DNA of 46,176 nucleotides from Ignavibacteriae bacterium HGW-Ignavibacteriae-2. Its GTDB lineage: Bacteria > Bacteroidota > Ignavibacteria > Ignavibacteriales > Melioribacteraceae. A program made the translations under genes and the position numbers. How positions within the stretch are numbered: the stretch's first letter is position 1; the number at the start of each line of letters is the position of its first letter. Location of the stretch: contig PGYT01000048.1 in NCBI GenBank assembly GCA_002839805.1, positions 1-46,176 on the forward strand. The letters are read 5' to 3'. Shown here piece by piece: positions 168-37,234 of this stretch. Below the pieces are notes generated by a model. That model saw only the letters and a list, made by a program, of their open reading frames with translations. It did not search any database and had not been told where the DNA came from.

Positions 168-1811
168 TTATTTCAAAAGCATCATTTTCTTTGTAGCTAC
201 AAAGCTTCCTGAAGTCAGCTGATAGTAATAAACTCCTGAAGACATTTTAGATGCATCAAGAAAATAGGTATGAGTTCCAGCGTTAATTTCCTTTGAGAAC
301 AATGTGTTAATTTCACGGCCAATTACGTCATAAACTTTAAGCGTAGCAAAGCCCGATTTTTTTAGACTGAATGTAATTGCTGTTGACGGGTTAAATGGAT
401 TAGGATAATTCTGATTCAAAGAATATTCAACCGGATTAAGATTATTTTCAACATCAGTTGTACTTAAAGTAAATACTGCTGTAATGTTTTTGATCCCGTC
501 TACTGTAATTTGCGCAGGATTAGCAGTACCGCTCAAGTCTCCGCCCCAGCCCGTAAATTCGTAAGTCGGATCAGGAACAGCAGTAACTGTAACTGCAGTG
601 CCACTTGGGAAAATCAGTCCTTTTCTTTCAGGATCGAAAGTAACTTGCCCGCTGCCCTCAATCTTAACATTAAGCGGCAGAACAGTAGGGGTATTAGTTG
701 CCCACCTTAAATCTCCAAGGTGTTTATTGCCGACACCCGAATAAAAAGCGGGCGAATTGGCGGCCAATGTAAAATTTTTGTTCGCAGCATCAGCATAGAG
801 AGGATCGAAATTGAATATAGTATTAGGATCCAGGGTTCTGGCCTTTTTAGTCGTTCTTAACACAACGGCGTCTCTAACCGGCCCGTAAACAATATTAAAA
901 GTATCTACGTTGGTTATAAACGTGCCGGGCAGCTGCGATTCAATCAAATAACTGGCTCTGTCCATTCTATCGGCACCTGGTAATCGTCCGTTAGAGATAA
1001 TAATATTTTTAATTTCAGTATTTTTATTGTTCTTAAAATATAGAACTCGTGTGGCGGAGTTATTAATTGTAAGATTTTCAACTATAACTTTTCCATCTAC
1101 ATTACTAGTATCAAGATCGCCGTAAAAACGGATACACTCTGCATCGATATTAGTAAATGTGCAATTTCTAACAATAAGTGAATCAACCAGTTTGGTAGTT
1201 TCAAATTTTTCAGTTTCAGACATCCTTATTGCTTCGTCGCCCATATTCTCAAATGTACAGTTTTCAATTTTTACAACACCGGCAACCGCGCCCTTCAAAA
1301 AATACAATCCGTGTCCAGCCAGATTAATATCTTTATCTTCATATACATTCCGAATTATGCAATTACGCAGTGTAATGTTAGTTCCGTTCTTAAATGCCAC
1401 CGGATCCCCATCGCCGTCGCCGGCACGAAGCGCATATTTCATACCGTGACTTCTTTCGTGACCACCGTCTATAATAACTCCTTCAATGGTAAGATCATTT
1501 TTAACACGGAATATTTCCAATACGTCTGCGCTATCATCGCTATGCGTAATTATAGGCATAGCAGCAAGTCCTTTTTTTGCTTTTATAATGAGTTTGTTTT
1601 TATTGTAGTAGTATAGAGTGTCTTTAGTTGTATAAACTCCACCCGAAGTCGCAAGTTGTATTGTATCAACCCTCTGCTGATTAGCAAAATTTATCGCTTG
1701 CTGAAAATCGAAATCCGATGTAACGTCTATACTTTTTATCTGGGCAAAAGAAGATACTGCCGATAGAGATAACGTTAAGAAAATAAATATTAGTAATTTT
1801 TTAAATTTCAT
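168..1811 (-). CDS. Right-handed beta-helix protein with InlB-like repeat and T9SS sorting domain
   Basis: This 547-residue secreted protein has a signal peptide of about 24 residues (ending SAVSSFAQ). A region at roughly 85-275 contains repeated short strands with N-rich turns (ITLRNCIIRN, VKIENCTFEN, LIVRNCTFTN), which is the signature of a parallel beta-helix. The motif LGDLRW near residue 367 is typical of Bacteroidota DUF4957/DUF5123 proteins. Residues about 385-455 form a divergent InlB B-repeat (YEFTGWGGDLSG...ITAVFT). The C-terminus is a T9SS type A sorting domain (NQNYPNPFNPSTAI to KKMMLLK). The start is well supported: a TAGGAGG ribosome site lies five bases upstream of the ATG. No polysaccharide-lyase catalytic motif was recognised, so it may be a lyase or only a carbohydrate-binding surface protein. 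Confidence 0.8.
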   Translation of the reverse strand: MKFKKLLIFIFLTLSLSAVSSFAQIKSIDVTSDFDFQQAINFANQQRVDTIQLATSGGVYTTKDTLYYYNKNKLIIKAKKGLAAMPIITHSDDSADVLEIFRVKNDLTIEGVIIDGGHERSHGMKYALRAGDGDGDPVAFKNGTNITLRNCIIRNVYEDKDINLAGHGLYFLKGAVAGVVKIENCTFENMGDEAIRMSETEKFETTKLVDSLIVRNCTFTNIDAECIRFYGDLDTSNVDGKVIVENLTINNSATRVLYFKNNKNTEIKNIIISNGRLPGADRMDRASYLIESQLPGTFITNVDTFNIVYGPVRDAVVLRTTKKARTLDPNTIFNFDPLYADAANKNFTLAANSPAFYSGVGNKHLGDLRWATNTPTVLPLNVKIEGSGQVTFDPERKGLIFPSGTAVTVTAVPDPTYEFTGWGGDLSGTANPAQITVDGIKNITAVFTLSTTDVENNLNPVEYSLNQNYPNPFNPSTAITFSLKKSGFATLKVYDVIGREINTLFSKEINAGTHTYFLDASKMSSGVYYYQLTSGSFVATKKMMLLK

Positions 1812-1863: not shown

Positions 1864-3378
1864 TTAAAACCCTATCTGATATCCGAACAAAAGGTTATTA
1901 TATGTTTCTGTTACGTAATTTGTGTTACTGAAATAAGAATCGTAGTATCTTAAATTTCTAATTTCGTAGGCTATATCAAATCTTCCGAAGAAAAATGATA
2001 AACTGCAGCCGAAAGTATAACTGTTCGCAACCGGTCCTTCGTCTTTAATCGCAGCGCCGTCTGGAATAAATGTGGAAGGAATACTCCTGTAACCACCTAG
2101 AAGGGTAAGAAAATCTGAGGGTTTATATTCCATTCCGACTTTTATAACATTTTTATCAGTCCATTTGTGAAAAGTTTCATCGGGGCTGCTGAGTTTAGCT
2201 TTAGCCTCACTGAATGGTTGATAGTCATAATCGATGGCCAGATTAAAATTATCTATAGGTGCATATTTTACACCAACGCTAAATGTCGCAGGTATTTCGT
2301 ATTCATCCGTCCCCGAAGTACTTTGGGTTGATAATGAAACCGAATCTTTTATTGTGGTTGTGTAATTCCAGTCCCTGTTTATAGTGTAGGGCAGATCCAT
2401 TTTAATACCGACACTAAAATTTTTGAAATGTGTTTGTATACCTACAAATATGTTGCTGTAATCGTAATCTGATGTTCCAGTGGTTGCAGTAGAACCATCC
2501 AGATATGTAAATCTGAATCTATTTTCCCTGAACAAATTAAACTGCCCAATTTTAACCAACGATTGCGAATCATCTGAATTTCCCCATCGGTAATTAAATC
2601 CCAGACCAATGTTCAAATATTCACTGAGGTCATATGCAATTGCGGCTGTAATATTGTTTATAACACCTGATCTTTCCCTTGTGAATCTTGACCAGTTTAT
2701 AAGCAATGTATCAACACCGTTAACCTTGGAAATATCTCCGTATTCAGTGTAACCGGGATGAGGATCTAAATATGTATCATTCCTATCATAGTCCTCTATA
2801 TTTATACTTTTTGAGTAGCCCGCAGAAACAACAAAATTATGACTGCCTATATTTAGAGGCACAGCAAAGGAAAAATTATTCAATACGAAATTATTCTTCT
2901 CCTTTTTCCAGTCTGCAGCTTCTTCGCTAAATTGATCAACACCCAATTTAGGTTCATCCACATGGTAAGTAGAATCGATTGTGTAACCATCACCCCACAT
3001 TCTTTCATAATCCCATAATCCGTTATCGGCAGGGTCAGGTATATATAATCCTTCCAAATAAAAGGGAAGCGTAAGAAAAAACCGGTTGGGTTTATAAGTC
3101 TGATTTTCCCTCCAGTTTTGGGTAAATAAGTTCCCGGCGACAGAAACTTGTATTTTATTTATTCCAATAAGACCGGCGGGATTATTGAACAGGCTTAAAA
3201 CATCACCCGAGTAAGCTGTAACAGCTCCTCCCATCGCGGTAGCTTTAACGCCCACATCATTGGAAACGGATAATCCCTGAAAAGATAAATTATCGCCGCG
3301 GTGTTGTCCGAAGATTACACCTGAGACCAGGATAACTAAAAGAGTTATATAATTTTTATTGATTTCTTTGATTAACAT
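1864..3378 (-). CDS. OmpP1/FadL-like outer-membrane beta-barrel
   Basis: This protein of about 504 residues has a signal peptide (LLVILVSGVIFGQ). The N-terminal segment VGVKATAMGGAVTAYSGDVLSLFNNPAGL is shared by the FadL/PorV-like superfamily of 14-stranded barrels, with the A-x-x-NPAGL motif typical. The rest alternates strands with aromatic girdles, and it ends in a C-terminal aromatic strand (LLFGYQIGF). The reading frame opens at a TTG at 3387, but the GGAG element lies one base from that codon and ten bases from the ATG at 3378, so the ATG is preferred. It is the fourth gene of the TonB-receptor operon, 24 bases after a PorV-like gene. Substrate and partner are unknown. It could be a diffusion channel or a T9SS shuttle relative. 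Confidence 0.72.
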   Translation of the reverse strand: MLIKEINKNYITLLVILVSGVIFGQHRGDNLSFQGLSVSNDVGVKATAMGGAVTAYSGDVLSLFNNPAGLIGINKIQVSVAGNLFTQNWRENQTYKPNRFFLTLPFYLEGLYIPDPADNGLWDYERMWGDGYTIDSTYHVDEPKLGVDQFSEEAADWKKEKNNFVLNNFSFAVPLNIGSHNFVVSAGYSKSINIEDYDRNDTYLDPHPGYTEYGDISKVNGVDTLLINWSRFTRERSGVINNITAAIAYDLSEYLNIGLGFNYRWGNSDDSQSLVKIGQFNLFRENRFRFTYLDGSTATTGTSDYDYSNIFVGIQTHFKNFSVGIKMDLPYTINRDWNYTTTIKDSVSLSTQSTSGTDEYEIPATFSVGVKYAPIDNFNLAIDYDYQPFSEAKAKLSSPDETFHKWTDKNVIKVGMEYKPSDFLTLLGGYRSIPSTFIPDGAAIKDEGPVANSYTFGCSLSFFFGRFDIAYEIRNLRYYDSYFSNTNYVTETYNNLLFGYQIGF

Positions 3379-3402
3379 GATTTTCAAACTCCGCTAATAA
3401 TT

Positions 3403-4374
3403 TTAGTTGATACTTAATCCGAGCGATATTCTGTGAATAGAGTCCAGGTATTCTCCATAATCATTAAAAGAATAATCCAACTTGTAACCCATAAATTGAA
3501 ATCCGGCGCCGGCGCAAATACCTTCCTGATCGTTGTTAAATAAGTAACCGCCTCGCAGATATAACATATTATTAAAAGAATATTCTATGCCCACCGCGTG
3601 CTGTTGATCGAAATCTCGCGGTTGAATCATATCGTAAGAAAGAAGAAGAGAATGATCTCCGGCATCAGCAATTAATGGATCATTTTGCGAAAAAAGATAG
3701 GTTGAAATACCCAAATTGAGTGTTTGAGGCAGAGGATAACTTTTGTCAATAAATTTAACTTCCGGACCAAAATTTCGAAGAGTCGCTGCGATAACAATTG
3801 ACTTAAATTCGGTATCATATCTTAATCCACCGTCAAACATAATTAAACCGGTGCTTTTATAAATTAAATCCTCATGTGCGTATTTTGCAGTTAACCCGAA
3901 AGAGAACCTATCGTTAAGGTCCTTGGCATAAGAAATTCCTAATACAAGAGCTTGAGGACTAAATTTATTTCCCGTTAGACCCGGGTTATATACTCCGTTA
4001 ACAAATCCGAGAGCTCCAACAGTTGTTTCCTCTATTTCGCCAACATTCGATAGCATTCCTAATAAACCGAATGTTCCCAGACCTTCAACAGTATAGGCTG
4101 CTGAAAAAGAATAATGTGCTGCATCCATAAACCAGTCGGCATACCCGAATGTTACACCCGCGTTCTGTACACTTGTTATCGCGGCTGGATTCCAAAAAAT
4201 CGCATCTGAGCCAATAGCTATGGAGCTATATGCTCCTGCCATAGCTGAAGCTCTTGCCGTTGTCATTACTTTCAAAAACTGGAATGAAGTTGTTCCAACT
4301 TTTTCGAATGCAAAAGAATTACTGTTAATCAGTATTATAATTAGTGCTGTTGTAATAAACTTTATTGGTTTCAT
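3403..4374 (-). CDS. PorV/PorQ family outer-membrane protein
   Basis: The protein has about 323 residues and matches the usual PorV/PorQ (UPF0164) length and pattern. After the signal peptide come FLKVMTTARASAMAGAYSS and a DAIFWNPAAI box, followed by barrel strands with a GISYAKDLNDRFSFGLTAKY element and a closing YSFNDYGEYLDSIHRISLGL strand. PorV is known as the outer-membrane shuttle that carries T9SS cargo to the attachment complex. Here it directly follows a T9SS cargo gene and a TonB receptor, so a dedicated role for that cargo is plausible but inferred. The frame opens at GTG 4380, but AAAGG sits seven bases before the ATG at 4374, which is preferred. A second cassette has a homologous 340-residue protein at 27752-28774. 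Confidence 0.85.
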   Translation of the reverse strand: MKPIKFITTALIIILINSNSFAFEKVGTTSFQFLKVMTTARASAMAGAYSSIAIGSDAIFWNPAAITSVQNAGVTFGYADWFMDAAHYSFSAAYTVEGLGTFGLLGMLSNVGEIEETTVGALGFVNGVYNPGLTGNKFSPQALVLGISYAKDLNDRFSFGLTAKYAHEDLIYKSTGLIMFDGGLRYDTEFKSIVIAATLRNFGPEVKFIDKSYPLPQTLNLGISTYLFSQNDPLIADAGDHSLLLSYDMIQPRDFDQQHAVGIEYSFNNMLYLRGGYLFNNDQEGICAGAGFQFMGYKLDYSFNDYGEYLDSIHRISLGLSIN

Positions 4375-4401
4375 ATCCACGCCTTTAAATCTTACGAGTA
4401 A

Positions 4402-6669
4402 TTATTTTATTACTACAAATTTTCCTTTTGATTGCTGTCCATCGGGTGTTGTAACAACATAAAAATATATGCCCGAGGCTATTTCCTGACCGTTTCTCGA
4501 TACCTGCAACCATGCAGTTGTATATAACGGCGCATCATGCTCTATTGATTCAATCAACTGACCTGAATAAGAGAAAACTCTGATGGTACATTTTTCGGGT
4601 AAACCGTAAAAACCTATTTTTTCATCATTTTCACCCGCGCCTTGAAAACCGGATTTTGAAATGAATGGATTTGGCACCGCGTAAATTTTTCCCATTTTAT
4701 CAACAGAACCGATATTTTTACTGAACTTGATAGAATTAGTTTTGCCAGATGAATTACCGAACTGATCGATAGATATAACTGAGTAAAATCTATTTTCGCC
4801 AATCTTATAATCAGGATCTGTATCCAAAACTAAATACTCATCATCACTATTAACGTCTCCTTTGGAAACTACAGCAACAGTATCGCTCCATGGACCCATT
4901 TGAGCTAAACTTTTGAGAACAACAAATTTCTCTAGCTGCCCGGTTAAATTAGGATGATTAAATTCTTCTACCGCACGTCCCCATTTAATTTCCACATTTC
5001 CATCGGCGGTGTTGCTAACAACTATTGCAGGGGCTGGAACCGGAACTGGAATACTATATTTCCCTTTTGATGGATTTGCTTCTGGCCAAACTGGTATTGT
5101 AGGTTCATTACCCAAATATGCCCGGAATGCGTTGTGTGTAACCTGTGTTACATTTCTAATTTTGGAATTTACGTAATCAGGATAGCCGTAATCTGTAAGA
5201 TAATTGTTAGTCATAGTTTCGCCGCCAATCACAACCTTTTTGTCCCAATTAGGTGTTTTGTTCCACTGTAAAAGCAAACCCGGTTGCCCCGAAGGGCCGC
5301 CTTCCAGCAATTTATTAGGCTGAGCGCCGTAACCTATTACTTCCGCAATTGCATACCTAAGTGTATCACCCAAATTCAAAGTATATGGTCCGAAAACAAT
5401 ATGTTTTTGTCCGGCGTCGTTACTTTGTCTGTAATTAAAAGCTGCACGTCCATACCAGCGCGGGTCGTTACGCGGGACCTGAGCCCAAGTTGTACTGCCC
5501 TCACTATAAACGCCGCTCCATCTTTTTTCCGGGTTTATGGCTTCAACAATCATTTTAGATGAACGTGTATTTCCTGTGCTTACTTTATTTGAAAAAGGCT
5601 GTTTCATGTGTCCGTTTTCATCGATCTCATAATAGACACCCATACTGGTATTAAGTATCTTTACTGATTCAGATTCATTTCTATCCGGATTGAGAGGATC
5701 AATTGTAGCCAGATGTTTAGTGTCATAGTAAAGCATCGCGTATCCGGGTGCCTGCGGTGAAAGAAGACCGCCGCCGTTTAATCCGGTTTCCGAAAACAGC
5801 TTAAACAATTGTTTATTGGGTTCCGGTTTTGCCGCGAGATATTGAGTTGTAAAATCATCCGAGCCAGTATGAGTAGTTAAATTAAAACCGAGCCAGTAAT
5901 CTGCGTCCCAAAAATTATATTGGTCGCCTCGGTAAATTCCTCCATCGTATTTCCAATCCTGATAATTTCTTTGATAACCGAACATTGATGGTGCGAAACC
6001 GTAAATAAATAAAATCATTGCGTCATTCAATTGTTCTGTTTGTTCAATGGTTTCCGGATTACCGTCTGTATCGCCGTTGTAAACGAACTCATATTCATAA
6101 ATAATCATATCGTCGTAATCGGGATAACTCCAGGCCCGTGAAGTTCTTTTAACGGAAATTCCTACAGATGAACCCCACGCAGATTCAATTATTTCTTCGG
6201 CTTCATTAGGGTTATAATCCGGATTAAGCGATCCATTGCTTAAGACCGGGAAATTTTCGGTTTCATTTATATAGTAAGGGAAACTCCATTTTCCGAAAGA
6301 TACTTCGGGCGTACTTGCTCCCACTCCGCCGCAGAGAGCATACATTCTATTGGCTGTGCCCAGTTGTCCTTTTTTATTTGCAGCTATGTAAAGACCTGCG
6401 CCCAATAAATTATGCTGACCGCTGTATTCAATTCCTTCCACAAACGTTTTAGAACCGGAAGGCCATTCCATCACCGGAATATTTGTTACGTTTCCCGCTT
6501 CACCGGTCATCCAGCCGCGTCCTATTTCGCCGGTATTATAAACGGTTTCATGCAGCATTCCGCGGTTGTGAATTCTATATTCTCTTATTTGTCCGTAAAC
6601 TGAAGTCGAGTACAGAATAAACATAAGCAGAGCTGAAAAAATTATATTGTTCTTATTTTTGGTAATCAT
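4402..6669 (-). CDS. Large T9SS-sorted surface protein paired with TonB receptor
   Basis: The mature protein is about 730 residues after a signal peptide (IIFSALLMFILYSTSVYGQ). The N-terminal half (EYRIHNRGMLHETVYNTGEI, then MEWPSGSKTFVEGIEYSG) resembles the start of the 28788-31907 product, and the two seem to be one family. A fibronectin III-like domain lies around 580-680, and the C-terminus is a sorting domain of the VPNPF...GKFVVIK kind rather than NYPNPFNP. Function is not recognised. The position directly after a SusC-like receptor, where SusD would normally be, suggests a ligand-binding partner of the receptor. The frame opens at 6699, but GGAG followed by five bases precedes the internal ATG at 6669, which also gives a clean signal peptide, so that start was chosen. 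Confidence 0.78.
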   Translation of the reverse strand: MITKNKNNIIFSALLMFILYSTSVYGQIREYRIHNRGMLHETVYNTGEIGRGWMTGEAGNVTNIPVMEWPSGSKTFVEGIEYSGQHNLLGAGLYIAANKKGQLGTANRMYALCGGVGASTPEVSFGKWSFPYYINETENFPVLSNGSLNPDYNPNEAEEIIESAWGSSVGISVKRTSRAWSYPDYDDMIIYEYEFVYNGDTDGNPETIEQTEQLNDAMILFIYGFAPSMFGYQRNYQDWKYDGGIYRGDQYNFWDADYWLGFNLTTHTGSDDFTTQYLAAKPEPNKQLFKLFSETGLNGGGLLSPQAPGYAMLYYDTKHLATIDPLNPDRNESESVKILNTSMGVYYEIDENGHMKQPFSNKVSTGNTRSSKMIVEAINPEKRWSGVYSEGSTTWAQVPRNDPRWYGRAAFNYRQSNDAGQKHIVFGPYTLNLGDTLRYAIAEVIGYGAQPNKLLEGGPSGQPGLLLQWNKTPNWDKKVVIGGETMTNNYLTDYGYPDYVNSKIRNVTQVTHNAFRAYLGNEPTIPVWPEANPSKGKYSIPVPVPAPAIVVSNTADGNVEIKWGRAVEEFNHPNLTGQLEKFVVLKSLAQMGPWSDTVAVVSKGDVNSDDEYLVLDTDPDYKIGENRFYSVISIDQFGNSSGKTNSIKFSKNIGSVDKMGKIYAVPNPFISKSGFQGAGENDEKIGFYGLPEKCTIRVFSYSGQLIESIEHDAPLYTTAWLQVSRNGQEIASGIYFYVVTTPDGQQSKGKFVVIK

Positions 6670-6713
6670 TTTTTCTCCGAATACTATTTTCCTTTTCATA
6701 GTGAAACCGGTAA

Positions 6714-9602
6714 TTAGAATTTTACAATTACGCCGAATCTAAAATGTCTTGGTTCATTGCTTAACAAATACAACTCCTGACTAGTAACAAACGGGTAATA
6801 TTCCTTATAGGTTAAAATTTCTTCTCTGTCTGTTTCCCATCTGGGGGTTGTTCTTTGGTCGTTAAAGGTTCTTGAATAATGGAATACTTTAGCATTTAAT
6901 AAATTGAAAGCTTCGCCATAAAGAGTAAGATCAGCGTTATCTATTTTTATTCTTTTTTCCACCCTAAGTCTCATATCTTGTTCAATGGGTGTACGTTTAT
7001 TGTATTTTAATCCCTGCCCACTTATGTCGTAGGTATATGGTCTGCCGCTGTAAATTTTGTAAGTTAAACTTATACTTATATTGCTCAATGGGAACATTTC
7101 GCCGATGGCAAATCCAAATTTGTTAGAAGTTAAATACCTTACATTCGCCACAGCTTTATGCGATCGGTCATAATCCAGATAAACATCTTCAGGATCAGGT
7201 ATCTCAATAGATTCCTGACCTTCGGCAGGTTTCTCGAAAAATGTTACAGGAGCATCAAGCGCATTACTGCTTTTACCTGTAGCAGACTCATAATTATACC
7301 TTACAGAACCCCTCAGTGAACCTTCATTTTTTTCTATACTTACATGAAATCCTTTTATATCTGCATAATCTCTATTCATATAAGTTCTGTAAACAGATTG
7401 CTGCTCATCGTAATAATAAGCTGATTCAATAAGATTTGTAACATCTTTATAGTAAGCGCTTACATCCAGTTTTAGTCCATAAGGGAAAGCGTTTACTAAG
7501 CCTATGTCGTAGGATTTTGTATTTTCAGGTTTAAGTTCGGGGTTTCCTAACACTTCAATTTCGTTAGATTTTGTTACCTGACTGTAGAAAATCTGGTTGA
7601 AGCCGGGTCGCTGTGTGAAAGTCCCGTAATTCAAATGAAATACAGAAGACTCGGAAAGAGGAAAAGATAAACCGATTCTTGGCTGTAAACGTGCATATAA
7701 TTTGGTATCTGTTTTGTCTGCTTTGTCCCTATCGTAGTATAAACCTCTCTCAAGATATGGCAGAGATTCATCGTAATCAGGATTACGCAAAGGGGAATAC
7801 TGATCAGAATAATAGGAGGAATTAAAATTATAAAAATCGTATCTGAGTCCAATGTTAGCAATAAATCCGCCTAATTCCAGTTTATCCTGCAAGTACAATG
7901 CCCCTTCGTAGGGATAAGCGTTAAAATTAATATCCCGATAAGAGCCAGAATTTGAAACGTTTAATTCCTGATCAACATGCACATCGTAATAGGAAATCTG
8001 CAGACCGCCTTTAACTAGATTGTTTTTATTTATCTGTGAGGTTAAACTTCCGTGTAAATCGTAAGTATAAGTTTGTTCGAACCCTCTGTCGTCGGACATT
8101 CTGCCGACACGCTGATTTGATGGGGTTGTATAATCCACCCAATTGGTTAATGATGAATAATCTTCCGTGTACTGAGTGTCAGTAATAACTTCAACTCTGT
8201 CCTCAGAGTATACATCCAGCAAATTCAGCTTTACATCAATAAAAGTGGATTTACTCAATATATGATTCCAGCTTAGCCCATATTGAAGCGATCTTTGAAC
8301 ATTTTTCGCGATGCTCAAAGTCCTATCAAACATCCAATAAAGCCAGTTGCTGTTTATTATATTATTAAACTGATAGTCGTAAACAAATCGTATTTGAAAT
8401 TTATTTTCCGGATTTGGCTGGTAACTTAAGTTACTCATTAACTGTCGCTCGACGTCATTATACGGAGTCGGAACAATTGGTGTAGAAACAGATTGTCTGC
8501 CTGCTGTAAATATCTTGACTCCGGTTGTTAGTGGACCGCCAATTGTAAAATCAGCGCGATAATCAACATTATTATCATATTCAAGACCTATATCCCGCAA
8601 CGCCGAAAGCCATTGGATTCTGCCGAGCTGAGCAATGTGCAAACTATCCCGTAAAGTAAGCGGGTTAGGCGGCCAGGTGATTCTTTCAGGTAAATAAACA
8701 CCGCCGAAGCCATACCCTGCGTCAAAAAGAGGTCTGCCAGGATTTGTTGGATTATCCTGAAGCCATGCTTCAACATTTTTTAGATTATCGTAATAATCAA
8801 GATTGGAAGTTGAATACGGACTTCCAGCCCATGACTTATAATAAGGAGGAAGTCCTGCAATCTCCAAACGAGTTTCCCATTCACTACCCCCTTCGCGAGC
8901 AACCATATTTACAACGCCCGATTGAGCGTTTCCATACTCAGCGCTAAATCCACTCGTATAAACTTCCACCTGTTCAAGTGCTGTAACAATTGGACTGAAG
9001 GCTCTTTGATTATTCAGAGGATTTACAATAGAACCGCCGCCCATCAGATAAAGAGATTCGCCGACACGTCCTCCGCGGAAATGGTCGTCAACAACATCCG
9101 CCTGCAGATCCAATATATCGGAAATATCTGCAACACCCGCGATGCTTTGAACCTCATTTATATTATAAACTTGTTTAGTAGCAGTAACATCAGCTTCTAC
9201 TGTTTTGGGGGAAAACGCAGTTACAGTTATCTCATCGGTTAAAAACTCCTCGCTTTCCAACTTGAAATTGACCGTTGTAGTTTTGTCAACATCCACACGA
9301 ACTTTTATTACTGCATTAGTTTGATAACCAACAAATGAGGCTTTAACACTATATTCCCCCGGTGGAATGTTGAGCATATAATACTCACCTTCTATATCAG
9401 CGGCGGCACCGAATATTGATTCCATTTTTTGCTCTTCGCCGTTTACCCACCGGGCAAAAACAACAATATTCGCTCCTATCAACGGCTCACCTGTTTTTGT
9501 ATCGGTTATTTTGCCGGCAATTTTTCCTGTTTCCCCTGCAAAAATTAGAGTAGAACAGAACAGAAATATTATTGCAAGTTGTATTTTTTTAAGTCTCCAC
9601 AT
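6714..9602 (-). CDS. TonB-dependent receptor with carboxypeptidase-regulatory-like domain
   Basis: This 962-residue outer-membrane receptor has a signal peptide ending IFAGETG. A CarboxypepD_reg-like domain covers about 24-120 (GKIAGKITDTKTGEPLIGAN ... GEYSVKASFVGYQT). A plug follows at about 125-245 with the FRGGRVGESLYLMGG and SGFSAEYGNAQSGVVNMV motifs, and then a 22-strand-type barrel ends in FRFGVIVKF. The SusC-like layout suggests energised import of oligosaccharides across the outer membrane. The start has a perfect GGAGG six bases upstream. It is the first gene of a run of short-spaced genes reaching the left edge, and a TTGACA/TATATT promoter sits about 200 bases upstream. No SusD gene follows. 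The substrate is inferred to be beta-glucan oligosaccharide from the neighbours only. Confidence 0.9.
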   Translation of the reverse strand: MWRLKKIQLAIIFLFCSTLIFAGETGKIAGKITDTKTGEPLIGANIVVFARWVNGEEQKMESIFGAAADIEGEYYMLNIPPGEYSVKASFVGYQTNAVIKVRVDVDKTTTVNFKLESEEFLTDEITVTAFSPKTVEADVTATKQVYNINEVQSIAGVADISDILDLQADVVDDHFRGGRVGESLYLMGGGSIVNPLNNQRAFSPIVTALEQVEVYTSGFSAEYGNAQSGVVNMVAREGGSEWETRLEIAGLPPYYKSWAGSPYSTSNLDYYDNLKNVEAWLQDNPTNPGRPLFDAGYGFGGVYLPERITWPPNPLTLRDSLHIAQLGRIQWLSALRDIGLEYDNNVDYRADFTIGGPLTTGVKIFTAGRQSVSTPIVPTPYNDVERQLMSNLSYQPNPENKFQIRFVYDYQFNNIINSNWLYWMFDRTLSIAKNVQRSLQYGLSWNHILSKSTFIDVKLNLLDVYSEDRVEVITDTQYTEDYSSLTNWVDYTTPSNQRVGRMSDDRGFEQTYTYDLHGSLTSQINKNNLVKGGLQISYYDVHVDQELNVSNSGSYRDINFNAYPYEGALYLQDKLELGGFIANIGLRYDFYNFNSSYYSDQYSPLRNPDYDESLPYLERGLYYDRDKADKTDTKLYARLQPRIGLSFPLSESSVFHLNYGTFTQRPGFNQIFYSQVTKSNEIEVLGNPELKPENTKSYDIGLVNAFPYGLKLDVSAYYKDVTNLIESAYYYDEQQSVYRTYMNRDYADIKGFHVSIEKNEGSLRGSVRYNYESATGKSSNALDAPVTFFEKPAEGQESIEIPDPEDVYLDYDRSHKAVANVRYLTSNKFGFAIGEMFPLSNISISLTYKIYSGRPYTYDISGQGLKYNKRTPIEQDMRLRVEKRIKIDNADLTLYGEAFNLLNAKVFHYSRTFNDQRTTPRWETDREEILTYKEYYPFVTSQELYLLSNEPRHFRFGVIVKF

Positions 9603-17443: not shown

Positions 17444-20221
17444 TCATCTTAATAATATCATTTTACGGGTTTGGTTAAATGAGCCTGCTCTCAAATTGTA
17501 AAAATATATTCCACTCGTCAAATTACGTCCGTCGAACTCAATAGTATAATTTCCTGAATTTTGATTTTCATTTACAAGTGTTGTTACAACACGGCCTAGA
17601 ATGTCGTAAATATCTAACTGAACTTTTACCAAATCATTCTGAAATCCGACATTATCGGTTGAGGAATTGGTATCGTTCCCTTCATTAAGAATCGAAGTTG
17701 AATTTAAAGAAGATGGAATAGTATATTCAATTATAGTAACCGGATTAAAAGGATTGGGATAGTTTTGTTTCAACCTAAATGTAGTTATTGCTTGATTTCC
17801 CAAAGTAATTTCAGTTATGAAAACATCATTAATTTTACCGGGTGTTCCCAAACCAATGGATGACTTCCAGCTTGAGGCACGAGAATTTTCCATATCAGCG
17901 TTTATCAACGATAAAGTTTTACCGGTTCCGTCACATTCTATTGGCCATGGATCTTCATCATCATAACTAACGGAATCGATAAGAGTGTTGTTATTATCAA
18001 ATAGTCTAACCTCGTCGCCGCTGTTATTTAATGCAAATGGTAAGTTTCCCAAAATATCGATGTCTTCTGTTAAATATTTCCTAAAGGCAGTCGAGTCGCG
18101 TGCAATTACAATGTACGCTTCGCCTTGTAAAATGAAACCTGGTGGAAAGCTGAACTTATGTGCATCATCGGAATCACGTATTATCCACCCATGCAAATCA
18201 ACTTCCTTTTTGGAATTATTATATAACTCAATCCAATCCTCTGTATCAAATTGCGGGGAGGAATTATAATTAATTTCATTAATTACTACATTTGGCAGGG
18301 AATTGTCTTTCTGAAATAGAGCAGTAAATTGAACATCTCCATTAGGCTCAAATGTTATTGACCGATCAATTGACTCTGATTCGCCCTGCCAACCAATAAA
18401 TTTATAACCGTATTTCGGAATGGCTGTAAGTGAAATTGTATTTCCGTAAAAATATTGTCCTTCCCAACTTGAGTCGTTTTCTATAATGGAATTAATTTTA
18501 ACTGATCCACCCGTGACATCGTTTATGTTTATTTTTACATCGACAAATCCGTTTATCTGAAACTGCAAGAGATAGTAAGCCTTCAGATACAACAATCTCT
18601 GACGCGCAAAATTTTTCATTATACCCAAATTGTTTGTCCATCCAGTCTTGCTAAATGTGTTCCAGCGCTGCCCGTGTCTTTGTATTTCCCCGGAGATTTG
18701 GGCGGATAAAGAATCTATAAGGCTTACAGCACTATCCGGCAAAAGTATTGTATTACACAGATCTGCGAATTTATTTAGGAATAGGTTTTTAAATTGATTG
18801 TTTTTTAAAAGACTGCGCAGTAAAAAAGTTGACCAGGGCGGATTAGGCCAGCCAGGTCCATTCCCAGCAAGCGCAAAACTGAGTGTGTTAAATTTATATG
18901 CCATAGGATCATATATCCCATAACCAAAATCCGTATCGAATATAAGCCATCTCCACTTACCTTCATTAGATTGCGGCCGCCAGAATTTTATATTATTGCC
19001 GGGCCAATCTTTGTTATCGTAATATATCTGAGCAGTCATATAAGCGATAAAATTGTTTATATCCATCTTTCCAGTTACTACTTGGTAATTTGCATCAACC
19101 GACATATCATATTTATTTATGAAAGAAATCATTTCTTTGTAGTGTGTATTATTGCCTTCTATAATAACACCGTCCAATTCAAGTATATCTAATTTATCGG
19201 GATCAGCGTTATTATGAGCCGCAATAAAGTCTTCATTAATTTTTTCTCGTAAATTTTGAATTCCCCAGTATTCTCCATTAATAAAAAGTATTGCCGGACG
19301 GTAGGCCTGCAAATCCAAATCCTGATTACCAACAAGTGTCTGCATAAAACCATCCCGAATCATAGTATAACCCCAGTCGTTGCCCGAATTACGAAGCAAA
19401 AACGAAGTATATTCTTTAAAAGGACGAGAAGGGAAAATCGTATGTTGGAATGATGAAGCTCCATATTTTTTTCGCGCATATACGGCTAGTGATTTTTGGG
19501 AATGCCCGCGCGACCAGCCACCGAATATTTTTATTCCGGCATTTGATTCAAATGACAGGGATTTATCCGATTCGAAAAACTGAATAAATACTTCCTTTTC
19601 CCAATCCTGCCAAAAGTTCGCATTAAAATAGGGGAACGCGCTTTCAGCGTTTGGTCCTTTCACATATATGCCCTCTTTATTATCCCAAAGGTTTATTCTA
19701 TCCGTCACTATTGAAACGACAGGCAAATTATGAACCTCATTTATAAAATAAGTGGCGGAAGAAACTTGACTCGGGAGAAACCCTTCTCTGATTGCTATTG
19801 CACGTATAACTGTTGTTTTAGAAATTACAAAAGGACCATCGTACTTAGTTGAATTTGAGGTTGGTGTATCGCCGTTAAGTGTGAAATAAATTTTTACTAA
19901 TGGATCTACGTTATTTAGAGCTATCGCAACTTGATTATTGTAAAATCCGGATGGATTAATAAAATTAACAGAACTAATTACATTAGCATATCCATTGGTT
20001 TCATTTGATGACCCAGGTGTAGATTCCTTAAAATAAACTAAGGTATCTGACCCATCAGGTTTTCGCCCGTAAGAGATATCGGGCATAAGTGGAGGAACAA
20101 CAAGTGAATCTATATGGCTCCCGTTGGGATTCATTAAATAAATAACATCGCCCGAAGAAGAAAGCGAAAAATTTGCGTTTAAAGGATTCACTGTAATTGT
20201 GAACTTGAACCGCCAGTACAT
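17444..20221 (-). CDS. CotH/lamin-tail secreted protein, 3' part of a frameshifted gene
   Basis: The frame completes a lamin-tail domain (NANFSLSSSGDVIYLMNP to STPGSSNE). It continues with a chitobiase C-terminal-like domain (YFTLNGDTPTSNSTKYDG), a full CotH kinase-like domain (HNLPVVSIVTDRINLW, LLRNSGNDWGYTMIRD, RWLIFDTDFGYG), an InlB-like repeat (YKFIGWQGES), a second lamin-tail domain (VVINEINYNSSPQF) and a T9SS domain (KQNYPNPFNPVTIIEY to RKMILLR). Its first residues, up to about base 20194, are out of frame with real homology, so the ATG at 20221 is not a true start. It should be read with the fragment at 20055-20951 as one gene with a one-base shift near 20185-20198. CotH proteins in spore formers are protein kinases. 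A role in a glucan locus is unknown. Confidence 0.75.
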   Translation of the reverse strand: MYWRFKFTITVNPLNANFSLSSSGDVIYLMNPNGSHIDSLVVPPLMPDISYGRKPDGSDTLVYFKESTPGSSNETNGYANVISSVNFINPSGFYNNQVAIALNNVDPLVKIYFTLNGDTPTSNSTKYDGPFVISKTTVIRAIAIREGFLPSQVSSATYFINEVHNLPVVSIVTDRINLWDNKEGIYVKGPNAESAFPYFNANFWQDWEKEVFIQFFESDKSLSFESNAGIKIFGGWSRGHSQKSLAVYARKKYGASSFQHTIFPSRPFKEYTSFLLRNSGNDWGYTMIRDGFMQTLVGNQDLDLQAYRPAILFINGEYWGIQNLREKINEDFIAAHNNADPDKLDILELDGVIIEGNNTHYKEMISFINKYDMSVDANYQVVTGKMDINNFIAYMTAQIYYDNKDWPGNNIKFWRPQSNEGKWRWLIFDTDFGYGIYDPMAYKFNTLSFALAGNGPGWPNPPWSTFLLRSLLKNNQFKNLFLNKFADLCNTILLPDSAVSLIDSLSAQISGEIQRHGQRWNTFSKTGWTNNLGIMKNFARQRLLYLKAYYLLQFQINGFVDVKININDVTGGSVKINSIIENDSSWEGQYFYGNTISLTAIPKYGYKFIGWQGESESIDRSITFEPNGDVQFTALFQKDNSLPNVVINEINYNSSPQFDTEDWIELYNNSKKEVDLHGWIIRDSDDAHKFSFPPGFILQGEAYIVIARDSTAFRKYLTEDIDILGNLPFALNNSGDEVRLFDNNNTLIDSVSYDDEDPWPIECDGTGKTLSLINADMENSRASSWKSSIGLGTPGKINDVFITEITLGNQAITTFRLKQNYPNPFNPVTIIEYTIPSSLNSTSILNEGNDTNSSTDNVGFQNDLVKVQLDIYDILGRVVTTLVNENQNSGNYTIEFDGRNLTSGIYFYNLRAGSFNQTRKMILLR

Positions 20222-20951
20222 TCATACCGTTATGCACTATCGCATGAATATTATCTATATAAAATGCTTCCGGTTTTCCTCCTTGATAAATAAGAGCCTC
20301 GTGTTGATTTGTAGCAAAATAATTATAGGGAATATCTTGTCCGGGGTTTCCTAAATTAACACGGGCTATTTCTATACCATTTATATACGCGGCAAATCCA
20401 TCGTCGTAATCCATATGAAAAACAGCTTGAACAATTTGTTCAATATCTTCGATAAAAAATTTTTTTCTCGCAAAAATAGAATTTGAATTCACTACTACAG
20501 TACGGTCATCATTGTCTCCCACTCCAATTCCTGTTGGTCCCTCGTGCCAACCGGCTTCATTAAAGTTTTCGTCTTTCCACTCTGCTGGAATTCCGGAGTT
20601 GCCTATTGAATATTTCCAAGTATCACCCCAATTAATTACAGTTTCCCAGTATCTGGGAAATAAATCCGAATCAGAAGATGACGCGTTAACAAGCATGAAT
20701 GATTTAGCTTTAATGACGACTTCAGGAAAAAGCCACGGTTCACCATTTTTCAAATTGTCTGTAAGTAAAAAACCATTTAGTTGAATTTCAGAAGTGTCGG
20801 CATTATAAAATTCTATCCAATCCGGAGTGCTGCCTTCGTTATCCGCAAGCGCAGAAACGTTTTTCGACATCACTTCATTAATGAATAGTTTTTGTCCACT
20901 CAGCTGGTTAAAAATCAGGAACAGTAATAACAATAGAAGGTTATATTTCAT
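20055..20951 (-). CDS. CotH/lamin-tail secreted protein, 5' part of a frameshifted gene
   Basis: The fragment starts with a signal peptide (MKYNLLLLLLFLIFNQLSGQ) and the first half of a lamin-tail domain (KLFINEVMSKNVSALADN, DWIEFYN, GFLLTDN). It then enters a galactose-binding-like jelly roll (WKYSIGNSGIPAEWKDENF to HNGMNVLAVQVHNYS). From about residue 254 the translation becomes meaningless and stops at 20055. The second half of the same lamin-tail domain is found in the overlapping frame of the 17444-20221 reading frame. The intact product would be about 1,160 residues. The break could be a sequencing or assembly error, a real inactivating mutation or, less likely, recoding. A stem-loop lies just before the ATG and no clear ribosome site is seen. 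Confidence 0.72.
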   Translation of the reverse strand: MKYNLLLLLLFLIFNQLSGQKLFINEVMSKNVSALADNEGSTPDWIEFYNADTSEIQLNGFLLTDNLKNGEPWLFPEVVIKAKSFMLVNASSSDSDLFPRYWETVINWGDTWKYSIGNSGIPAEWKDENFNEAGWHEGPTGIGVGDNDDRTVVVNSNSIFARKKFFIEDIEQIVQAVFHMDYDDGFAAYINGIEIARVNLGNPGQDIPYNYFATNQHEALIYQGGKPEAFYIDNIHAIVHNGMNVLAVQVHNYSESFKRKFFAFFFGRCYLFNESQREPYRFTCCSSTYARYLLRAKT

Positions 20952-23331: not shown

Positions 23332-25590
23332 TTATTTAAGCACGAATTTCTGTTCTAAATTTTCAATCATAACTGAAAATTCTCCCGACTCGGTTATTCT
23401 TTTATTTTCCCTTCCAATAAACGATAAATCCTCGGCAGTTAATTTAAAGGAAATTGTTTTAACCTGAGCTGGATCCAAAGATATTTTTTCAAATCCTCTT
23501 AACTGTTTTACCGGCCTTGAAACGGAACCATATTTATCGCAGATGTATAATTCCACAACTTCTTGTCCAGCCAATTGCCCGGTGTTTTTAACATCCACCG
23601 ATATATTTACATCGTCGTTCATCTCGTAATTAATTTTATCCAGCTTTAGATTGGAATATTCAAATGAAGTATAACTAAGCCCGTAACCAAAATGCCACTG
23701 ATGTTGCACAACATTCTCATTCGCATTTTCCAATGGTTTGTAATCATATGTAGTAAATCCGTTAACTGCGATAGGATAAGAATAAGGCAACTTGCCGCTA
23801 GGGTTTACATCACCAAACAATACATCTGCAATTGCTCTGCCTCCTTCCATTCCGGGAAGATAGGCGAGAAGAATTCCTTCTGCTTTTTCTACGATTTCAT
23901 TTATAACTCTGGGTCTGCCTTCAACTAAAACTAAAACTACTGGTTTTCCGGTTTCGTAAATCTTTTTAGCAAATTGTAATTGAACTTCGCTAAGATTCAG
24001 ATTACTTATATTGCCAGGAGTTTCACAGTATGGTGGTTCGCCCAAACATAAAACAATTACATCGGAGTTTTTTGCTTTTTCAACTGCTTCAGTAACATTT
24101 ATTTCTGAGTCAAAATTAACACCTTCCAGATATTGAGTGTTATCGGCGCCAACTTTATTTTGAATTGCTTCCAAAATTGTAAATTTTTCCTGAGGGTATA
24201 ATGATTCATTATTACCCTGCCAGGTGATTGTCCATCCCCCGTTTAATACAGATAATAAATTTGCCGCCGGACCTGTTACAAATACTTTTTTATCTTTTTT
24301 TAACGGTAGAATATTGTTTTCGTTTTTAAGAAGAGTTATAACTTCCTGGGCCGAAGCTAAATTAGCCGAAGTGTGATTTTGGGAGGCAAACTCTTCGGAG
24401 AGAGATTTATCAGGATACGCATTATCAAATAATCCAGCCAAGTATTTAACACGTAATATTCTACTAACAGCGTCATCAATACGTTTCATAGGTACTTCAC
24501 CATCTTTTACAAGTTCCAACAGATATTCGTAGAATGAAAAATCGTATGGAACCATACTCATATCTACGCCAGCCATTACGGCAAGTTTAACGGCTTCTTT
24601 TGGTGATGCCGCCACACGATCGCGAGTATATAATCTTTTAACATCTTCCCAATCCGAAACCGCAAACCCTTTAAACTGAAGTTCATCTTTCAGAATTTCG
24701 GTAAGGATATGATAATCCGAATGAGTGGGAATACCATTAATTTCACCCGAGTTAATCATAACTGTTAAAGCTCCTTCATCTATTGCTGCGGCAAATGGTG
24801 GCAGAATAATTTCACGCAGCATTCTTTCAGGTATCCATGCTGGTGTTCGGTCAAAGCCATTTTTTGGCAAACTGTAACCCATATAATGTTTCAAACAAGC
24901 GACTCCACTGCTTTTATCACTTACATCGTTTCCTTGTATTCCTTTTATATATTCTCTCGCGTATTCACTTGTCATATATGTATCTTCACCATATGTTTCC
25001 CAAAGTCTTGACCAAAGTGGCTCTCGTCCCATATCGAGAACGGGATTAAAATTCCAAGGTATTCCTGATGCTCTCATTTCGAAAGCGGTTATTTCCGCAC
25101 CTTTTCTTACGAGTTCTCTGTTACGTGTGGCGGCCATAGCAATTGCTTGTGGAAATAGAGTTGCTCCTAAAGTATAAGTTGCGCCATGTATAGCATCTAT
25201 TCCATAGAGCACAGGAATTCCCAACCTTGTTTCTTTTGTTGCAATGTCCTGAATTGTTGTTATAACTTCGTGCCACTTTTCCAGGGAATTGGCGCTTCCG
25301 CCGGTATTAAGAATTGAACCAACGTGATATTTTAAAATTGCTTCGTTTAATTTTTCAACATCCAGAAATAGTTCATCACCTTCATTCGGTCTTGGTTGCG
25401 AAACCACTTCCAAAGTAATTTGAGTCATTTGTCCAATTTTTTCTTCCAAGGACATTTTTGACAGAATGTTATTCACAAATTTATCCGCTTCAATAATCCT
25501 TGAATTTTTATTCATTTGATAGCTCCCGGTGAAAGCCGATACACTAATTGAACTCAATATGATCATTAATAGTAAAGCTATTCTTTTCAT
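23332..25590 (-). CDS. GH3 beta-glucosidase, BglX-like
   Basis: This 752-residue GH3 enzyme has a signal peptide ([20 protein letters not shown]) and no sorting domain, so it is probably periplasmic. Features seen are [12 protein letters not shown], the LKHYMGYS region, the nucleophile motif [10 protein letters not shown] (Asp313), [13 protein letters not shown] in the second domain, and a fibronectin III-like domain from about 645 ([20 protein letters not shown]). It would hydrolyse beta-glucan oligosaccharides to glucose after import. It follows the permuted GH16 gene by 28 bases and precedes the MFS transporter by 35, which supports one transcript linking cleavage and uptake. A GAGG lies before the ATG. 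Confidence 0.93.
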
Positions 25591-25618: not shown

Positions 25619-27424
25619 TTACTTCAAGAAAACCAATTTTTGTGAATGGTATTCAATTCCGTTTGACAGCTGGCATATATAGACCCCGGAATTTAATTGT
25701 ACCCCTTTTTCGTTTTTCGCATTCCATAAAAAATAATGAACTCCCGAGCCGGTTACATTAAAAGTTTCCCGATATACAATTCCACCGAGAATATCATAGA
25801 TAGTCAACTTTATTTTCTCCTGACCATTCGCTATGTATCTTATATTTGTATACCCGTTAAACGGATTGGGATAGTTTTGAAGAAGTTGAAAATCTTTGGG
25901 GGATATTGTATTGTTTGAGCTAACATCGGTAAAAACCTGCTCGACAATTATTGCATTCGCAAATGAGCTATCGACTTCTTCAGGTAAATAGATATCCAAA
26001 ATTTCATCTTCCACATCTACTTCTTTTTCAAGTATATAGGCTCTATTTTTCCCAACATTTAATGCAAGATCAAGATTATCTTTTACAATTACGCCTTCGG
26101 CAATAACATCAAATACTCTTGCGCCGGGTGCATTGTTGTCATTTTCCGAGAAAAGAAACTTAACATTATATCTTCCGGCCGGAACTCTGAATTTATAAGT
26201 GGCGAGTCCTTTCCGTTCAACCCTAAAAATATCATCATCTTCAGTTCCGGCAATATCAACATCACCCCATTTTTTTATGTCTCCTCCCAAATAGCCGTAA
26301 TCAACTGTTTCATTCCATTCCTGATCAGCAGCGTAGTCAAGCACAGCGCTGCCGCCAAGGTTCACTTTAAAGGGGAACTGAATCTTTTTTAATTTATTAA
26401 TACTTACCGCTTTAGTAGACATAGTGTTTGGCGGACTTGCATCATCAGAAACACTAAGCACAATTAAATTATAACTATTTTCTAAATTATAATTTTCGGT
26501 GAGCAATTTAACAGATTTCTTGTTTGGGCTGAGGAGAACTTCTTTTATTGTAACCCCGGATATTAAATATTTAGAAGGAATTACCGCTGAGGCGGAATCC
26601 AGTTCTTCAGAAAACATTACATCAATAGAACCATTATAATTTTCGTGAGCCCATAATATTTCCGGTTTTTGCAAATCTGTGTATCCAAGGTTAGTTGAAT
26701 TTGTTAAACATAGAATCATTTTTCCGTCTTCAAACACTATGTTTTCCTTAATAAAATCACAATCATTTCCACCGAATGTATGGGTTGCTTTCTCCCACCG
26801 GGTTTCATCGAAGGCATCGAAATCATCTTTCCATTCTAAAGAAAAATTATTTCCGGTGCCATAATCACCGGATCCCGGTGAGTATTTATAATAACTTACC
26901 CAATCGTAATACGAGTTAGCCGGCAATATTGCTTTATTCCAATAACCTACCCAATTAGTATAAACCGGATTCCAAATATTCATCATTAATTTTTGGGGAT
27001 AAGAAAGTGTTTTTACAAAATCTTCTGTTTGCCTGTAAACTTCCTCTCCATCAATAAACCAGGCAACATAATCAGGCGTCCATTCGAATGCATAAGTGTG
27101 GAAATCGGCATAAGGATCAAAGCTTAAATAATTGCTGCGGATATGAAATTTTTGCCCCGGTGTAATTGTATTGAACTGAATAATATTGGTGTGACGTCCG
27201 ACAAACTCAATATCAATTTCATTCCAACCCGTAGAACTTGTAATTTCGTGGTAAGTGAAAAATGAAGAAATAACTCCCTCGCGAAAGGCGGGTATATAAC
27301 TAACTTCGAATCTGCCGTATAAAAATTCTTCTTTAGTCCTGTATTCACCACCTTTATAGTTTTTACCTTCTGCTAAGGATGAAAAAAAAAGTATTGAAAT
27401 AAATAAGAGCGTAAATTTCTTCAT
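25619..27424 (-). CDS. Circularly permuted GH16 beta-1,3-1,4-glucanase with malectin and T9SS domains
   Basis: The catalytic domain begins in the middle of the usual GH16 order: GGEYRTKEEFLYGRFEVSYI, then the catalytic box NEIDIEFVG, then HTYAFEWTPDYVAWFIDG. The normal N-terminal strands (FSLEWKDDFDAFDETRW ... IKENIVFEDGKMILCLT) follow them at about residues 213-260 counted from 27481. This is the order known for the naturally permuted Fibrobacter succinogenes lichenase. An Ig-like region (about 270-365), a malectin-like domain (about 370-520) and a T9SS domain (LQNYPNPFNGYTNIRY to QKLVFLK) follow. The frame opens at 27481, but the ATG at 27424 starts the signal peptide (MKKFTLLFISILFFSSLAEG) and has an AGGA element. 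It is likely the first gene of the enzyme block. Confidence 0.9.
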   Translation of the reverse strand: MKKFTLLFISILFFSSLAEGKNYKGGEYRTKEEFLYGRFEVSYIPAFREGVISSFFTYHEITSSTGWNEIDIEFVGRHTNIIQFNTITPGQKFHIRSNYLSFDPYADFHTYAFEWTPDYVAWFIDGEEVYRQTEDFVKTLSYPQKLMMNIWNPVYTNWVGYWNKAILPANSYYDWVSYYKYSPGSGDYGTGNNFSLEWKDDFDAFDETRWEKATHTFGGNDCDFIKENIVFEDGKMILCLTNSTNLGYTDLQKPEILWAHENYNGSIDVMFSEELDSASAVIPSKYLISGVTIKEVLLSPNKKSVKLLTENYNLENSYNLIVLSVSDDASPPNTMSTKAVSINKLKKIQFPFKVNLGGSAVLDYAADQEWNETVDYGYLGGDIKKWGDVDIAGTEDDDIFRVERKGLATYKFRVPAGRYNVKFLFSENDNNAPGARVFDVIAEGVIVKDNLDLALNVGKNRAYILEKEVDVEDEILDIYLPEEVDSSFANAIIVEQVFTDVSSNNTISPKDFQLLQNYPNPFNGYTNIRYIANGQEKIKLTIYDILGGIVYRETFNVTGSGVHYFLWNAKNEKGVQLNSGVYICQLSNGIEYHSQKLVFLK

Positions 27425-27525
27425 CTGTTTAATTCCTAATTTATAAAAGATAGCTTCTGGTCTTAAAAATAATAATCGCAATTATTTAAGATCTTGTACA
27501 ACTGCGTTAGTCAAAAATACTGACT

Positions 27526-28774: not shown

Positions 28775-28787
28775 AATTATTCTTCCC

Positions 28788-31907: not shown

Positions 31908-31937
31908 TCTCGCCTCCATTTACAAAATTATTGTTCG

Positions 31938-37169: not shown

Positions 37170-37234
37170 AAGGAAAATCCTCCATATGATTGTGGTTGGT
37201 GATTGGTATTTAATATTTGAGTTAGTTGGTACCA

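Follow-up and report, generated by a model that had tools for sequence, protein, structure and literature searches.

The window, a stretch of 46,176 nucleotides, is one contig (C28) of the genome of Ignavibacteriae bacterium HGW-Ignavibacteriae-2 (4.16 Mb, 99.92% complete; hereafter the home genome), and every long gene in it lies on the minus strand. It carries two copies of a cassette in which the gene of a TonB-dependent transporter (TBDT, the receptor) is followed by that of a large surface protein with a C-terminal sorting domain (CTD) of the kind used by the type IX secretion system (T9SS), and then by a barrel gene of the PorV/PorQ family. We call the surface protein S, with S1 in copy 1 and S2 in copy 2. 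The features of the two copies are as follows.

6714-9602, minus strand: TBDT of copy 1, first cassette gene (962 aa; PF00593 79.6 bits, cut-off 27; CarboxypepD_reg PF13620 53.3 bits at the N-terminus)
4402-6699, minus strand: S1 surface protein (765 aa; signal peptide; no cysteine near the N-terminus)
4405-4698, minus strand: CTD of S1, PorZ/PorU-like by CTD tree and profile comparison (PorZ tail model 32.3 bits vs TIGR04183 26.6)
3403-4380, minus strand: PorV/PorQ-family barrel of copy 1, proposed anchor or shuttle of S1 (325 aa; NF033709 174.9 bits, cut-off 90)
31938-34592, minus strand: TBDT of copy 2, in the same receptor clade as copy 1 (884 aa; PF00593 85.2 bits)
28788-31919, minus strand: S2 surface protein (1043 aa; super-beta-sandwich, further beta domains and PorZ/PorU-like CTD in the predicted model)
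27752-28774, minus strand: PorV/PorQ-family barrel of copy 2 (340 aa; NF033709 213.1 bits, cut-off 90)
1864-3387, minus strand: FadL/OmpP1-like barrel, fourth gene of the copy 1 operon (507 aa; PF03349 35.2 bits)
168-1811, minus strand: T9SS-sorted right-handed beta-helix protein, fifth gene of the copy 1 operon (547 aa; PF13229 40.4 bits, PF18962 38.0 bits)

Copy 1 is transcribed in the order TBDT, S1, barrel, FadL-like gene, beta-helix gene, with gaps of 14, 21, 15 and 52 bp. The last two genes sit beyond the 3403-9602 span of the first-pass annotation, a reading made from the letters of the window, and the contig stops just past the beta-helix gene. That annotation placed the start of S1 at 6669, which is an internal methionine ten codons in: the gene runs 4402-6699. 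Its view of S1 as a T9SS-sorted protein is borne out by TIGR04183 (26.6 bits, cut-off 23) but not by PF18962 (just 13.5 bits, cut-off 27); because one model passes while the other falls below its cut-off, the sorting domain is taken as divergent. S1 also stays below the PorZ equivalog model (32.3 bits, cut-off 260). A Pfam search of S1 returned no named domain except a weak CHU_C tail, its sequence matched nothing in the PDB or in PHROGs, and a scan of viral contigs for S1 relatives found none. The first 100 residues contain no cysteine, as read from the translation only, with no lipoprotein predictor run. The dedicated PorV-like barrel of the earlier proposal does belong to the PorV/PorQ family by NF033709, but is not a canonical PorV: it reaches 61.3 bits with the PorV equivalog model (cut-off 250) and 93.0 bits with that of PorQ (cut-off 220). 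Copy 2 (27752-34592) repeats the gene order TBDT, S, barrel; the CTD of S2 gives no match to TIGR04183 at E ≤ 1, and PF18962 is absent.

The cassette is abundant in the home genome, which encodes 17 PorV-family genes and 32 TBDTs above the respective cut-offs (PF00593 for the latter; the TBDTs of loci L092, L093 and L096 were identified by translation instead). Thirteen of the 17 barrels adjoin a TBDT and/or an S gene, which leaves four: PorQ, a PorV2-like protein, one of a tandem pair and the canonical PorV that neighbours PorU. The order differs in cassette L088 (S, two genes, TBDT, barrel), and cassette L099 starts at a contig end. The home genome holds at least 14 S proteins among the S1 matches listed. 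The fourteenth (L271:5442-8696 on contig C25, 1084 aa) has an adjacent GH2 gene and shares its contig with the full L091 cassette, whose barrel this orphan S perhaps uses, in the manner of orphan type B cargoes sharing one shuttle. Genes for SurA-like peptidyl-prolyl isomerases adjoin two other home cassettes (L092:17164-18834, with two such domains in the protein, and L094:2313-3743, with one); outer-membrane folding helpers at these places may be of interest.

For a view beyond the home genome, eight home S2-type queries were scanned against the genome collection and the best 80 of 522 relatives were used. The deposited titles of these loci name Ignavibacteria, Bacteroidetes, Calditrichota, Neomarinimicrobiota and others; the 80 loci are mutually related and hence not independent events. 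A TBDT lies directly upstream of S in 77 of the 78 loci with upstream sequence, the exception (L202) having its TBDT downstream of a second S. The barrel lies directly downstream in 70 of 76 loci by gene calling, in 72 with all frames read (L150 and L182), and no more than three genes from S in all 76, the last four being L142 (where S is split), L189, L190 and L202. Orthologues of S1 were found in nine of the 38 relatives searched, with a TBDT upstream at 9/9 loci and a barrel at 8/8; where the sequence extends far enough, a FadL-like gene comes next (7/7), as does a relative of the beta-helix gene (7/7). Eleven more distant S1-like loci agree in all testable cases (TBDT upstream 10/10, barrel 11/11). 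The order TBDT, T9SS-type surface protein, PorV/PorQ-family barrel reported in the first-pass annotation is confirmed, and the linkage of the three families repeats widely, in Ignavibacteria and at loci labelled Calditrichota and Neomarinimicrobiota.

The association also holds when counted from the barrels. In three single-contig genomes 10 of 14, 9 of 13 and 4 of 8 barrels adjoin a TBDT, the four non-cassette barrels of each genome being a PorU-linked PorV and three other non-cassette types. Across six relatives, 26 of 70 PorV-family genes over the cut-off have a same-strand TBDT detectable by PF00593 in the 6 kb upstream of them, and none of the 70 has one downstream; random placement of the TBDTs (2000 trials, some contig sizes approximate) gave a mean of 1.0 and a maximum of 5. 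The linkage between TBDT and barrel is not due to chance. A PorV-family gene pair accompanied by a protein of 519-529 aa with a PorU/S-like tail is conserved in the four genomes read for it (L100:9020-12534, L236, L244 and L250), has no TBDT, and is possibly another unit of barrel and cargo.

The members of the cassette are set apart from their paralogues. In a tree of 34 home TBDTs, a set that lacks receptor C77, the 12 cassette receptors form one clade (support 1.0) apart from the 22 others. In the barrel tree a split (0.86) separates the cassette barrels, together with one barrel of the tandem pair, from PorV, PorQ and PorV2; the barrel profile was built without three divergent home barrels. 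Distances among S, barrel and receptor agree over 12 home cassettes, with Mantel r of 0.81 to 0.92 (S and barrel 0.82, p 0.0001; S and receptor 0.92), and the CTD alone follows the barrel (r 0.74, p 0.0009); cassette L099, whose receptor lies past the contig end, and the orphan S of L271 were left out of this test. The agreement indicates that S, barrel and receptor travel together, and correlated divergence is not proof of contact between them.

The SusD lipoprotein is missing from this arrangement. PF07980 has no match at E ≤ 0.001 in the home genome, the Bacteroides control being positive, and a SusD profile built from four relatives found none in cassette neighbourhoods and TBDT regions (0/565, 0/803, 0/230 and 0/233 proteins): no SusD homologue stands beside the receptors in the neighbourhoods searched. 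The wider distribution is less simple. Presence of S was scored on five candidates per genome in a class set of 149 genomes and on three per genome in a phylum set of 247, so the figures are presence counts and not censuses. In the class, SusD is matched in 37 genomes (34 above the cut-off) and the S2 profile in 147 at 1e-5, 107 at 1e-20 and 79 at 1e-100, the weak matches perhaps coming from other proteins with a CTD. In the phylum, S is present at 1e-20 in 97 genomes and SusD in 130: both in 52, S only in 45, SusD only in 78, neither in 72. None of the 54 genomes in which SusD is matched at least eight times has S (SusD counts have a ceiling of about nine, and ancestry is ignored here), and the median number of SusD matches among genomes with S is one. 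S and large SusD repertoires are mutually exclusive, and because 45 of the 58 S-bearing genomes outside the class keep some SusD, S is not a simple replacement of it. The earlier statement that the T9SS protein stands instead of SusD holds for the home genome, but not for those S-bearing genomes of the phylum that have at least one SusD, nor for Melioribacter roseus, for which a passage of PMC3534657 reports one SusCDE operon. The glycan clusters of Ignavibacteriales are described in part of PMC10576277 as scarcely containing susCD, and their machinery as distinct.

A T9SS is available for S in the home genome, with PorU (967.3 bits), PorV (254.8, the canonical copy adjoining PorU), PorQ (256.9), PorZ (369.1) and SprA (977.4) all above their cut-offs. 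SprA also passes its cut-off in G362 and G363, whose loci are titled Neomarinimicrobiota, which places a T9SS translocon under a phylum label outside Bacteroidota. Ordinary T9SS cargo of the home genome carries a type A CTD (reference set: 33 home proteins above 75 bits to a profile from eight window proteins); the CTD of S is of a different type. By profile comparison its nearest relative is the CTD of PorZ (E 2.4e-19), then that of PorU (3.2e-13), then type A (5.3e-9), and in a CTD tree the 13 S and 19 PorZ sequences (19 of the 20 reference loci) are grouped (0.88), with PorU next (0.77). The median length from the PNP motif to the end is 97 residues in S, 91 in PorU, 85 in PorZ and 79 in type A. 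A loop of the form W-x12-G-x-Y, a motif picked after viewing the alignment, is found in S (13/13), PorU (4/4) and PorZ (19/19), and would mark kinship rather than retention. The type B system can be set aside by score: the CTD of S gives 9.8 bits with TIGR04131 (cut-off 35), and the cassette barrel 15.9 bits with the PorP/SprF model TIGR03519 (cut-off 90.55).

A structural model of S2 was predicted with good scores (pLDDT 85.2, pTM 0.79). Its top rows in VIA-align are glycan enzymes: dextran dextrinase (9ju0, Z 20.6 over 266 residues at 3.0 Å) and glucoamylase (1lf6, Z 19.6), followed by glucodextranase, cyclic glucan synthase, laminaribiose and cellobiose phosphorylases and GH116. The rows are of the whole S2 model, not of an isolated domain; they mostly start near residue 30-45 and stop between 491 and 964. 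We take the common region, from known fold families, to be the super-beta-sandwich domain, and read S2 as probably carrying a super-beta-sandwich like that of glucoamylases and glycan phosphorylases. The model has no (alpha/alpha)6 catalytic domain, and only short helices after the signal peptide. Such a likeness of predicted fold to glycan enzymes does not imply sugar binding. The best Foldseek hits of S2 (PorZ 5m11, 8.3e-7; PorU 6za2, 5.1e-5) have whole-chain TM-scores below 0.1 and were rejected as whole-protein matches; by sequence, S2 gives one chance-level row in the PDB (E 0.2) and the S2 profile gives PorU only (E 0.076). S1 is connected to S2 through a family of proteins of 605-662 aa (S1 to family E 4.4e-62, family to S2 E 5.7e-47), the direct alignment of the S1 and S2 profiles being confined to the CTD.

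The neighbourhoods of the two copies differ in the substrates to which they point. Copy 2 is flanked by the following genes.

34680-37235, minus strand: CBM9 T9SS protein, upstream of copy 2 (PF06452)
37235-38806, minus strand: sodium:solute symporter, upstream of copy 2 (PF00474)
25619-27481, minus strand: GH16, downstream of copy 2 (Pfam)
23332-25590, minus strand: GH3, downstream of copy 2 (Pfam)

Among the 39 loci taken as copy 2 orthologues (identity at least 52%; L166 was kept in the other group), a GH16 or GH3 homologue is found at 31, CBM9 at 36 and the symporter at 26; GH16/GH3 occurs at none of the 41 other S2-family loci. Conserved co-localised glycan enzymes, a trait of polysaccharide utilisation loci, are present. 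The first-pass annotation had tied copy 1 to beta-glucan, and this tie finds no support: GH16/GH3 genes are found at none of the nine copy 1 orthologue loci (phmmer, 1e-40, in the stretches read, three of them short), nor are CBM9 or the symporter, and the conserved beta-glucan context is that of copy 2. The GH16 gene 465 bp upstream of home copy 1 probably belongs to the neighbouring locus, and beta-glucan is unsupported as the substrate of copy 1. Three of the orthologue loci instead carry genes of another kind: L216 and L217 have a gene of the PL6/chondroitinase B family 3' of the beta-helix gene, L216 also has a heparinase II/III-type gene, and L218 has three sulfatases. The home contig ends before the position that matches these PL6 and sulfatase genes. 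A check of the neighbours of all home cassettes but L089 and L099 found GHL10 and CBM48 (L093), CBM9 (L094), a rhamnosidase-like gene (L097) and a glucoamylase-like gene (L098), besides a solute-binding protein (L091) and a weak X25 domain (L092).

We propose, and consider about evenly balanced between true and false, that the cassette is a SusD-free surface unit for capture and import: a TBDT with an S protein that is installed by the T9SS, retained on the barrel and captures the ligand. S would be exported through its PorZ/PorU-like CTD and stay on the surface, bound to a PorV/PorQ-family barrel of its own in the way that PorQ holds PorZ and PorV holds PorU. The N-terminal super-beta-sandwich would bind the ligand, mostly a glycan fragment, and hand it over to the adjacent receptor, S thus occupying the position of the SusD lipoprotein in SusCD. 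Each cassette would serve one substrate, which may be beta-glucan for copy 2 and is more likely a uronic or sulfated polysaccharide for copy 1. The barrel was earlier seen as a shuttle; given that the CTD of S is akin to those of the retained PorZ and PorU, and that the barrel is not a canonical PorV, it is no less likely to be a lasting anchor. The uncleaved state of the PorZ and PorU CTDs of P. gingivalis, and the sub-complexes PorQ:PorZ and PorV:PorU, are described in passages of PMC5562754, PMC11285876 and PMC10202324. Anchoring of S on the barrel is somewhat favoured over shuttling, though unproven.

In a purely shuttling role the barrel would ferry S from the translocon to PorU without forming a lasting complex with it. 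Once cleaved, S would be either attached to lipopolysaccharide or set free, and might still serve the receptor. The cassette barrels belong to the right family for this, the loop shared with PorZ is no bar to cleavage, and in F. johnsoniae a type B cargo requires its cognate, adjacently encoded PorP/SprF shuttle, according to part of PMC12618676; but the canonical PorV beside PorU is already available for ordinary cargo, and the CTD of S groups with uncleaved ones, which leaves this account unlikely. A smaller chance goes to S being a surface enzyme or a structural or adhesive protein that merely shares an operon with the receptor. The super-beta-sandwich does belong to GH15, GH94, GH116 and GH149 enzymes, and enzymes and adhesins are common among T9SS cargoes; against this, the S2 model lacks a helical catalytic barrel and has few, short helices, and the receptor adjoins S at nearly all loci while the genes on the opposite side vary. 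We regard as quite improbable that the receptor is an export aid, an Oar-type protein that with TonB moves or displays S, in the way that Oar acts on PopC in Myxococcus, with no nutrient import. The receptors do have the Oar architecture of CarboxypepD_reg and barrel (PF13620 and PF00593, scores as listed for copy 1), and PopC secretion requires Oar (a passage of PMC6434023); yet the same source, in the part concerned, gives this architecture as dominant among Bacteroidetes TBDTs, so that we do not regard it as diagnostic, S bears a T9SS-type CTD in a genome with a T9SS, and catabolic genes recur near many cassettes.

In the capture-and-import proposal we infer that S is retained on the barrel, touches the receptor and binds the ligand, that the ligand is imported, and which fold S1 has. 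Several observations weigh against the proposal. The model of S1 is poor (pLDDT 44, pTM 0.32, from S1 and 35 S2-type sequences) and confident in the CTD only; because it is unusable, the fold extends to copy 1 only through the intermediate family. In the profile comparison given above, the CTD of PorU is closer to type A (1.3e-17) than it is to S (3.2e-13), the W-x12-G-x-Y loop also occurs in 4 of 33 ordinary type A CTDs, and a PorZ/PorU-type loop grafted into RgpB left cleavage unblocked (section 2.4 of PMC11285876, the part concerned); for these reasons the case for retention of S comes down to CTD kinship. Correlated divergence of the three genes also follows from duplication of whole cassettes. 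The 12 kb read at the orphan S (L271:5442-8696) contain neither a receptor gene nor a barrel gene. At cassettes L088 (PLD), L090 (amidase, FG-GAP) and L096 (oxidoreductase) none of the neighbouring genes tested is clearly linked to glycans, and S coexists with SusD in 52 of the 97 S-bearing genomes of the phylum sample.

The cassette resembles several known systems in part. As in SusC/SusD, the gene of a TonB receptor is directly followed by that of a surface partner dedicated to it, at loci with glycan enzymes. The cassette differs in that the partner comes with a barrel of its own and is of T9SS type instead of a lipoprotein, SusD is absent, and the receptors lie outside the SusC/RagA model TIGR04056 (cut-off 368.25 bits; the copy 2 receptor reaches 77.2 bits, and that of copy 1 is not matched at E ≤ 1). 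In BtuB-BtuG and similar pairs a surface lipoprotein partner caps the TonB receptor, and there is no barrel gene. The cassette shares with them a surface partner for a TonB receptor, but this partner is not a lipoprotein and a barrel gene is present. Counterparts of S and barrel are PorQ-PorZ and PorV-PorU, where a surface protein with a related CTD goes with a PorV/PorQ-family barrel, likely partner by partner. In contrast to these, S and the cassette barrels score below the PorZ, PorQ and PorV models, exist in many copies per genome, are linked to a TonB receptor and have no suggested part in cargo processing. Pairs of type B CTD and PorP/SprF-like barrel (SprB-SprF, PG1035-PorP) likewise place a cargo gene before its own barrel gene, but neither the CTD of S nor its barrel is of these kinds, and the cassette includes a receptor. 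Passages of PMC9143113 and PMC12618676 describe PorP/SprF-like barrels as binding, and possibly anchoring, type B cargo.

The cassette may constitute a separate class of importer, which we hold to be slightly short of an even prospect: a TonB receptor with a super-beta-sandwich binder, delivered by the T9SS and held through a PorZ-like CTD on a dedicated PorV/PorQ-family barrel, filling the role of SusCD in SusD-poor lineages. No earlier description of the cassette was found in the open-licence PMC literature, a coverage outside which subscription papers and preprints fall. Ignavibacteriales degrade polysaccharides although susCD is scarce in them, as part of PMC10576277 relates, and the cassette offers a concrete and repeated candidate for uptake with named genes. 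If the proposal is true, TonB-dependent uptake and type IX secretion, so far separate fields, would become joined, the T9SS would assemble import machines besides secreting enzymes, and many surface proteins that now lack annotation would gain a function, as would many paralogues of the PorV family.

Two minor observations concern other genes of the window. The FadL-like barrel at 1864-3387 matches the BamG model with 53.3 bits, below its cut-off of 250. A CotH/LTD protein at 17444-20951 is spread over two overlapping frames (17444-20221 and 20055-20951); the two may represent a single gene with a frameshift.

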